From assembly GCA_008638015.1 (NCBI GenBank), contig VTPD01000009.1, positions 1 to 36,913 on the forward strand: a stretch of DNA of 36,913 bases, in the 5' to 3' direction. The translations under genes were made by a program, and so were the position numbers. Below are positions 26,882-28,711 of the stretch, in pieces. This DNA is from Pelagibacteraceae bacterium. Its GTDB lineage: Bacteria > Pseudomonadota > Alphaproteobacteria > Pelagibacterales > Pelagibacteraceae. Positions within the stretch are counted from its first letter, which is position 1. Each line of letters begins with the position of its first letter. The notes below the pieces were generated by a model that was not told the origin of the DNA, did no database searches, and worked only from the letters and a program-made list of their open reading frames with translations.

Positions 26882-27478
26882 TTATTTTTGAATTAAAAAT
26901 ATTCCTAATTCAGAAACTAAATTTTTAATTTCCAAATTACTTTTTTGAATATCACTTATTTTTTCTGAAGATACTGATATAGATTTTACAATCTTAATAT
27001 TATCCAACGCACAAAGATTATAAAAATCTTTAATAGTACACATATGAAGATTGGGCGTATTATACCATGTATAGGGTAGGGTTTTCGTGACTGGCATTTG
27101 ACCTCCAATGAGAAGGCTTAATCGAACTTTCCAATAACCAAAATTAGGAATGGTGACTATGGCATTTTTAGCAATTCTTAATAACTCATTAATTACTTTT
27201 CTTGGATCATAAAATTGTTGAAGTGATTGATTTAAAATTGCAAAGTCAAAAGATGTATCTGGATAGTTTATGAGATCTTTTTCTGCATCTCCTTCAATAA
27301 CAGCTAGACCTTTGGCCACACTTTCTTGTACTTTTATTTGGTCGATTTCAATTCCCCGACCATCAACTCTTTTGTTTTTCTTTAGGTGCAATAATAATGA
27401 TCCATCTCCACAACCAACATCAAGAACTCTTGAATTAATATCTATTAAACCAGCAAGAACATCATCTTCAATTTTCAT
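26882..27478 (-). CDS. metW: Methionine biosynthesis protein MetW
   Basis: MetW is a methyltransferase-like protein paired with MetX in many proteobacteria and needed with it for efficient homoserine acylation in some species. The 198-residue protein has motif I VLDVGCGDGSLL at 18-29, GIEIDQIKVQESVAKG, and the family-typical NFGYWKVRLSLLIGGQMPVTKTLPYTWYNTPN. It overlaps the end of metX by 11 bases and ends three bases from the convergent methyltransferase gene. It shares the SAM-II-controlled message of metX. Confidence 0.93.
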   Translation of the reverse strand: MKIEDDVLAGLIDINSRVLDVGCGDGSLLLHLKKNKRVDGRGIEIDQIKVQESVAKGLAVIEGDAEKDLINYPDTSFDFAILNQSLQQFYDPRKVINELLRIAKNAIVTIPNFGYWKVRLSLLIGGQMPVTKTLPYTWYNTPNLHMCTIKDFYNLCALDNIKIVKSISVSSEKISDIQKSNLEIKNLVSELGIFLIQK

Positions 27479-28601
27479 TTTTAAATTCCTCGTAGGTTGA
27501 GTCTATAAATCCCTTTAATGTATTAAAAAACGCAGGTTCATTTACTAAAAATGAGTCATGTCCATTATTGGTAACAATTTCAACAAAACTTACTTCTGCG
27601 CCAATCGCATTTAACGCAATAACTATTTTTTTACTTTCTGATGTTGGATAAAGCCAATCCGTCGAAAAAGATATAATACAAAATTTAATTTTTGATCCTT
27701 CAAAAGCTTTAGCTAAATTACCATTATTTTGTTTATATAAATCAAAATAATCCATAGCTCTTGTAATATAAAGGTATGAGTTAGCATCAAATCTATCAAC
27801 AAAAGAATAGCCTTGATATTTTAAATAGCTCTCAACTTCAAAATCTGCATCAAAAGAAAATTTTAAATCACCTTTTTCCTGTAATTTTCTTCCAAACTTA
27901 TTTTGTAGACCTTGTTCTGACAAATAACTTATGTGTCCAGCCATTCTTGCAATAGCCAAACCTTTTCTGGGAACTTTTCCTGATGATATATAATTTCCAC
28001 TATCCCACTCAGGGTCAGCCATAATTGCCTGTCTAGCCAATTCATTAAATGCTATATTTTGAGCAGAATGACTTGCAGCACATGCAATAGGGATTGCAGA
28101 ATAAGTTCTTTCTGGAAATAACGTACAAAATTGCAAAGCTTGCATTCCACCCATAGATCCACCTAGCACTGCTAGTGTTTTTTTTATTCCTAATAGATCC
28201 AAAAGATGAACTTGAGCAGTAACCATATCCTTTATAGTTACTACAGGAAAATTTAATCCATAGGGTTTATTGGTAGATGGGTCAATTTCTTTAGGACCCG
28301 TTGTACCCATACATCCGCCTAGAACATTAGCGCAAATAACAAAATATTTATTGGTATCAATGGCTTTATTTTTTCCTACAGTAAAAGTCCACCATCCTTC
28401 TTTTGAGGTTACTGTATTAGTTTCGCAAACAAATTGATCACCAGAAAGTGCATGAAAAACTAAAATAGCATTTGTTTTTGTCTCATTTAATTTGCCATAA
28501 GTTTCATAGGCAAGATCAAAACCTTTTAATACAGTTCCACAATCTAATTGAAGGTCTTTATCTATTCTGACTTTTTTTATATTTTCAAAATTTAAATTCA
28601 T
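27468..28601 (-). CDS. metX: Homoserine O-acyltransferase (MetX type)
   Basis: MetX acylates homoserine (acetyl-CoA or succinyl-CoA) to start methionine synthesis. It is an alpha/beta hydrolase fold of 377 residues with nucleophile S149 in GGSMGGMQAL, D315 in STDWLYP and H348 in NNGHDSFL; the oxyanion region is FHALSGD. Acetyl versus succinyl specificity cannot be told by eye, since MetX proteins of both kinds exist. A SAM-II riboswitch precedes it, so expression should fall when SAM is plentiful. No alternative in-frame start exists between the ATG at 28601 and the TAA at 28640-28638. Confidence 0.95.
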   Translation of the reverse strand: MNLNFENIKKVRIDKDLQLDCGTVLKGFDLAYETYGKLNETKTNAILVFHALSGDQFVCETNTVTSKEGWWTFTVGKNKAIDTNKYFVICANVLGGCMGTTGPKEIDPSTNKPYGLNFPVVTIKDMVTAQVHLLDLLGIKKTLAVLGGSMGGMQALQFCTLFPERTYSAIPIACAASHSAQNIAFNELARQAIMADPEWDSGNYISSGKVPRKGLAIARMAGHISYLSEQGLQNKFGRKLQEKGDLKFSFDADFEVESYLKYQGYSFVDRFDANSYLYITRAMDYFDLYKQNNGNLAKAFEGSKIKFCIISFSTDWLYPTSESKKIVIALNAIGAEVSFVEIVTNNGHDSFLVNEPAFFNTLKGFIDSTYEEFKNEN

Positions 28602-28609
28602 TTTTTTAA

Positions 28610-28630
28610 AACTATACTTATCGTATAGTT
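28610..28630 (-). promoter_or_regulatory. Hairpin between the metX ribosome-binding site and its start codon
   Basis: On the minus strand AACTATAC (28630-28623) pairs perfectly with GTATAGTT (28617-28610) around the loop GATAA. A31-T09 (28631/28609) extends it to nine pairs. Only three Ts follow, then six As and the ATG, so it is a poor intrinsic terminator. It may instead act as a structured spacer. Confidence 0.6.
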
Positions 28631-28680
28631 TCCCTTTTTAGCAGTTTGATCGCTCGCAATACGGTTAAATCAGCGCTCGC
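28631..28680 (-). promoter_or_regulatory. SAM-II riboswitch controlling metX-metW
   Basis: The minus strand carries the conserved core GCTGATTTAACCGTATTGC (28674-28656) followed by GAGCG, an eight-base linker and GCTAAAAAGGG (28642-28632), in the order and spacing of the SAM-II (metA) family. The P1 stem is CGCT (28675-28672) with AGCG (28654-28651), extended by two pairs beyond one G-A mismatch (GAG with ATC). The 3' pseudoknot strand AAAAAGGG also serves as the ribosome-binding site in this family. SAM binding is expected to hide it and shut off translation. It lies directly upstream of metX on the same strand. Confidence 0.95.
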
Positions 28681-28682
28681 TA

Positions 28683-28711
28683 GTTGTACTAAATGCTAAT
28701 TTTATTGTCAA
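28683..28711 (-). promoter_or_regulatory. Promoter for the SAM-II riboswitch and metX-metW
   Basis: On the minus strand TTGACA (28711-28706) and TACAAC (28688-28683) are separated by 17 bases. The predicted start near 28676 falls at the first bases of the riboswitch P1 stem, so the message would begin almost exactly with the aptamer. Confidence 0.6.

Follow-up and report, generated by a model that had tools for sequence, protein, structure and literature searches.

A hairpin in the leader of metX probably acts as a structured spacer (a split ribosome-binding site) and as part of the expression platform of a translational riboswitch of SAM-II type at metX–metW in a Pelagibacteraceae bacterium. 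The window analysed was the whole stretch of 36,913 nucleotides forming contig VTPD01000009.1 (assembly GCA_008638015.1). The structured-spacer half of this reading had been put forward in an initial annotation of the DNA and is well supported by 13 of 13 leaders, by a fixed effective spacing and by covariation. SAM binding, translational control and coaxial stacking at metX are steps that we infer. The arrangement combines two known ideas, the hairpin spacer and riboswitch occlusion, as a new variant.

The metX leader

metX (homoserine O-acetyltransferase, 377 amino acids) occupies positions 27468..28601 of the minus strand, with its start ATG at 28601, and was assigned using NCBIfam NF001209 (516.9 bits, cut-off 331). 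metW (26882..27478, minus strand; TIGR02081, 235.3 bits, cut-off 189.5) overlaps the end of metX and belongs to the same transcription unit, the two genes forming a methionine-synthesis pair. A probable promoter, TTGACA-N17-TACAAC (28683..28711, minus strand), was assigned by consensus match only and lies immediately 5' of the aptamer. The SAM-II-type aptamer (28632..28680, minus strand) has a compact P1, an L1 core GATTTAACCGTATTGC at 28656-28671 and the 3' strand GCTAAAAAGGG. Its 3' end is the Shine–Dalgarno-like (SD-like) sequence AAAAAGGG (28632..28639, minus strand), the first two Gs of which (28633-28634) are the proposed P2a partners of the CC in L1.

The proposed structured-spacer hairpin, GAAACTATAC-GATAA-GTATAGTTTT (28608..28632, minus strand), is built from arms at 28623-28632 and 28608-28617 with the loop at 28618-28622, and is separated from the start codon by an unpaired AAAAAA (28602..28607, minus strand), a segment of 5-8 nt in each relative. 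The initial annotation had placed AAAAAGGG at 28639-28632 and the ATG at 28601, and both positions were confirmed on the minus strand. The span that it gave for the hairpin, 28610-28640, slightly missed the base of the stem at 28608-28609.

The stem contains ten pairs, nine Watson–Crick and one G–U, the latter using the third G of the GGG. The minimum free energy of the hairpin was -10.5 kcal/mol compared with a mean of -2.3 for shuffled sequences (z = -5.9), and none of 200 shuffles was as stable; the hairpin with a GATAA loop that had been reported between the ribosome-binding site and the ATG is thus confirmed. The distance from GG to ATG, described earlier as about 30 bases and too far for a normal site, is 31 nt in the linear sequence, against a genus optimum of 4-9 nt. 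Folding leaves 6 nt unpaired (7-8 if the terminal pair frays), so that the normal spacing claimed for the folded form holds. No ATG, GTG or TTG was found among the in-frame codons from the first upstream TAA to the metX ATG of the window, which bears out the earlier statement that there is no other in-frame start.

Identity of the aptamer

The window aptamer scored below the Rfam cut-offs, with 11 bits for RF00521 (cut-off 36), and it is therefore labelled SAM-II-type here and not a SAM-II member. Its best riboswitch match in Rfam was SAM-V (RF01826), with 17.7 bits against a cut-off of 41, while the SAM-V elements that the clade does carry (L151 and L152) score 69 bits. The metX leaders tried from other SAR11 genera reached only 28-33 bits, also below the cut-off of 36, and the Rfam cut-off therefore misses the SAR11 lineage. 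The SAM-II label of the initial annotation accordingly holds as far as these relatives and synteny are concerned, the window aptamer being syntenic with the metX SAM-II of other SAR11 genera, but not by the Rfam cut-off.

An H-type pseudoknot core (P1, L1 GAUUU..CC..UUGC, a 3' GCUAAA strand and a methionine gene downstream) was present in 13 leaders. In these 13 leaders the pairs of P1 change yet stay paired (3-6 bp, with just 3 bp in three relatives), and the CC of L1, partner of the SD GG in P2a, is kept in every one. SAM binding by the window aptamer is likely, though the short P1 of some relatives and the sub-cut-off Rfam score speak for caution. It resembles SAM-II (RF00521, RF01726) in its metX gene, in the core GATTTAACC..TTGC..GCTAAA.AGG and in the CC–GG P2a over the SD, and differs from it in the compact P1 and linker, the sub-cut-off score and the hairpin between SD and ATG. 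With SAM-V (RF01826) it would share a translational OFF logic, a 2-bp P2a on the SD and an occurrence in marine alphaproteobacteria, but its score is far under the SAM-V cut-off.

Related elements were seen elsewhere. L151 and L152 (reverse strand, approximately 1500-1800) carry a tandem SAM-II – terminator – SAM-V arrangement before bhmT-like (G034) and metE-like (G001) genes; the SAM-V element is followed by a long hairpin TGTTGAACAAA..TTTGTTCAA with an anti-SD (TCTCC/CCTCC) and then by a second SD and an ATG, and this SAM-V platform looks like a relay rather than direct occlusion. A SAM-II-like element with a direct SD, AAAGGAG-AAACA-ATG, precedes an open reading frame of about 60 amino acids (MKQQSKKTTIQIMYETV...) at L002 (G000:C63:349-431) and L160; Pfam gave no match for this frame. 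Regular expressions applied to other alphaproteobacterial metX loci recognised no SAM-II-like leader at most of them.

Conservation and covariation

The closest relatives of the window belong to the Pelagibacteraceae. Within the genera g1, g8 and g10, leaders were gathered from those genomes in which metX is present. In the MetX tree g1, g8 and g10 form one clade (100/97), which we take to be SAR11 subclade IIIa; g6 is its sister, and g5 and g2, which bear the terminator, fall outside. The 13 leaders with a readable hairpin were folded, giving 12 distinct sequences, as two g10 leaders are identical; the leader of G014, which is the same as that of G026, was not among the 13. The G059 leader, whose 3' arm includes an N, did not fold, although by eye six of its seven pairs are formed. 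The MAFFT alignment (A1) failed to register the stems, and for the covariation count the positions in each arm were therefore numbered from the base of the hairpin. The promoter pattern TTGACA-N17-TACAA[AC] was present in all 13 IIIa-type leaders checked, and the ATGAA start of metX was kept in the aligned leaders.

In all 13 folded leaders the hairpin begins 0 nt after the GG of the aptamer and leaves 5-8 nt between its end and the ATG, although the GG–ATG distance along the sequence spans 22-32 nt. For the 12 distinct leaders the effective spacing was 6.4 ± 1.0 nt, compared with a linear spacing of 26.7 ± 3.5 nt. The stems are of seven distinct kinds and contain compensatory changes, with one G–A mismatch in G003. 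Pairs 4-7 from the stem base were paired in 96% of cases within their own arms and in 43% when arms were swapped between species, and at least three standard pair types occur at each of these four positions. Permutation of the 3' arms matched the observed pairing in 4 of 20,000 trials. Shuffle tests on single leaders were in part weak (p up to 0.12), with seven distinct stems only. The check proposed with the initial annotation, which asked whether the stem covaries in relatives and the effective spacing stays constant, thus gave a positive result in all 13 leaders with a readable hairpin, and the stems provide strong evidence that pairing rather than sequence is maintained in the metX spacer.

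G001 and G004 contain an additional in-frame ATG within the 3' arm, five codons upstream of the start. It was rejected as an alternative start, being 15 nt from the SD and not common to the other species.

SD spacing in the genus

SD usage was assayed in 792 kb of G001, a genome of the same genus. GGAG, GAGG and AGGA cores peak 4-9 nt before start codons (10-18 per position against a background of about 4), and at 22-32 nt before starts no enrichment was found over the same 792 kb. SD use in this genome is sparse (72 of 723 genes, compared with 33 in the control window). A pattern for the 3' end of 16S rRNA gave no match in three genomes, and the anti-SD was therefore deduced from the SD spacing peak; because of this and of the sparse SD use, the dependence of metX on its SD is presumed. 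The folded metX spacing is inside the genus optimum of 4-9 nt and the linear spacing is far outside it. In the clade the hairpin brings a distant SD near the start, from 22-32 nt linear to 5-8 nt folded, as in a split (structured-spacer) ribosome-binding site.

A strict scan for an SD, a flush hairpin, 4-9 nt and an ATG returned a single match, metX, among 1,093 candidate starts, and 2 matches among 7,642 out-of-frame control ATGs. A looser scan gave three further weak candidates, none of which passed the strict test. Structured spacers as a genome-wide habit were thus ruled out, metX being the only case in 792 kb of G001. A chance hairpin was likewise ruled out by the shuffles, the leaders of relatives, the covariation and the strict scan.

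Alternatively, metX might initiate without an SD, and the stem might be a decayed terminator relic or a landing site for a protein or RNase that plays no part in initiation. The weak genome-wide SD use, and a position that is the same as that of the probably ancestral terminator, speak for this. Pairing would not persist in a relic through repeated wholesale replacement of the stem with constant 3' spacing, and the stems have no common sequence for a protein to read; we consider this alternative very improbable.

Expression platforms in other SAR11 genera

In g2, g3, g5, g7 and g9 the same metX aptamer is followed, after a gap of 4-9 nt, by a near-invariant terminator, GCCCAG-UUUAG-CUGGGC-U7-9. 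The effective spacing in 33 terminator-type leaders was 15-31 nt and never within the SD range, and tight spacing is therefore special to the IIIa-type clade. The window genome itself has an aptamer of this kind at a metF-like gene (L001, G000:C49:55239-55314, minus strand), where the SAM-II aptamer is followed by the intrinsic terminator ACCACCG...CGGTGGT-T9; the same arrangement of metF is found in the relatives L150 and L153-L157. These terminator-type elements resemble the window metX leader in the position of the aptamer and in having a hairpin directly downstream, but have a GC-rich near-invariant stem, U7-9, an effective spacing of 15-31 nt and transcriptional control.

The metX hairpin might by analogy be an intrinsic terminator, or a weak version of one, giving attenuation as in other SAR11. 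The terminators in the same place in the five groups above and at metF of the same genome are in line with this, as is the frequent association of SAM-II switches with terminators (PMC1273637). However, the hairpin did not show the GC-rich stem and U-tract of an intrinsic terminator, and a terminator scan found none in the window. No terminator-type U-tract follows the stem in the clade leaders, where at most 4-5 U occur downstream, including those in stem pairs, and the tails are mostly A-rich; the metX stem is also AT-rich, variable in sequence and nearer to the SD. Since metF in the same genomes keeps its U9 tract, only metX has lost its terminator. Attenuation was rejected on the U-tract check and the terminator scan, and we give it little credence. 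The earlier remark that too few Ts follow the hairpin for a terminator is right for the IIIa-type clade, whereas other SAR11 genera do have a true terminator there. From the tree, the terminator form is probably ancestral and was replaced by the spacer hairpin in g1, g8 and g10.

Two further groups differ again. In the g4 metX leaders (L145-L149) a conserved GTTTTTTTCTCACAATTC comes after the SAM-II aptamer, and there is no terminator stem, no SD hairpin and no SD near the ATG; this may represent a third expression platform at metX. In the sister genus g6 the metX loci (L104-L111) are without a SAM-II leader and metX lies in a different gene neighbourhood, the aptamer at metX having been lost.

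Exact copies of a 52-nt metX SAM-II aptamer were found in two g5 genomes (L211 and L212; G152:C1:199044-199095 and G093:C3:53503-53554), with the terminator GCCCAG-UUUAG-CUGGGC-U9 beginning 4 nt downstream. This 52-nt aptamer corresponds to the sequence of the crystal structure 2QWY. The native switch of the 2QWY aptamer would then be transcriptional; a review takes it as a model of translational occlusion.

Proposed mechanism

Direct occlusion, with P2a formed over the SD, has been described for SAM-II and SAM-V (PMC6061858, PMC10907184). At low SAM the pseudoknot of the metX leader would be open and the GG/GAGG at the 3' end of the aptamer free to pair with 16S rRNA; the hairpin would tuck away 17-25 nt, so that only 5-8 nt separate the SD from the ATG, and translation of metX would proceed. 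Once SAM is high, closure of the pseudoknot and of the 2-bp P2a (the CC of L1 with the GG of the SD) would block the SD. The leader would thus be an OFF switch in which SAM closes P2a on the GG and, without SAM, the hairpin keeps the SD at a working distance. Because P2a and the hairpin meet with a 0-nt junction, they may stack coaxially and so steady the closed state. We see an even chance that a covarying hairpin of no fixed sequence, stacked flush on the pseudoknot, sets the distance from SD to start, that a terminator-to-spacer swap made a transcriptional switch translational and that the hairpin is perhaps also a latch on P2a.

An alternative is that the chief role of the hairpin is to stack on P2a and so stabilize or insulate the aptamer, with spacing secondary. 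The 5' gap next to the P2a GG is exactly 0 in every leader, which is stricter than pure spacing requires, and the terminator-bearing relatives have a gap of 4-9 nt. Stacking as the main role leaves unexplained the 3' gap fixed at 5-8 nt, within the genus SD window, and is unlikely, if the least so of the alternatives; such a role might operate together with that of a spacer. A relay of the kind seen in the SAM-V tandem leaders, with a second SD concealed in the hairpin, was rejected, as the metX hairpins contain no second SD or anti-SD. The competing second switch that the initial annotation had offered, with the hairpin arms competing with the pseudoknot, has adjacency only in its favour and is barely credible: when the whole leader is folded to minimum energy, the hairpin forms a domain of its own, which abuts the two Gs put forward as P2a partners but shares neither of them, and the stem sequences vary without matching changes in the aptamer.

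Comparison with known systems

The structured spacer has its closest counterparts in bacteriophage T4, where hairpins between SD and AUG reduce the spacing from 22 to 5 nt in gene 38 and from 27 to 11 nt in gene 25 (PMC3014915). Destabilizing these hairpins lowers initiation (Nivinskas, 1999; Malys & Nivinskas, 2009; reviewed in PMC3014915). The metX leader is like them in that an SD–AUG hairpin shortens the gap (22-27 nt to 5-11 nt in T4) and is kept throughout one clade but is missing elsewhere. It is unlike them in that a metabolite aptamer supplies the metX SD with its 3' end, the T4 hairpins being enhancers without a riboswitch; in that its stem sequence has been replaced repeatedly and stands where relatives have a terminator; and in that the function is only predicted at metX. 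No description of a riboswitch with a hairpin-spaced SD was found in the open-licence papers searched.

The metX leader thus appears to be a cellular, riboswitch-linked split ribosome-binding site, an arrangement known in the literature found from two T4 genes, and has comparative support in an effective spacing that is held while the linear spacing and the stem sequence drift. In the IIIa-type clade the metX switch probably controls translation where relatives use a transcription stop signal. It would be a natural case of a riboswitch going from transcriptional to translational control through the exchange of one hairpin, in a highly abundant bacterial group.
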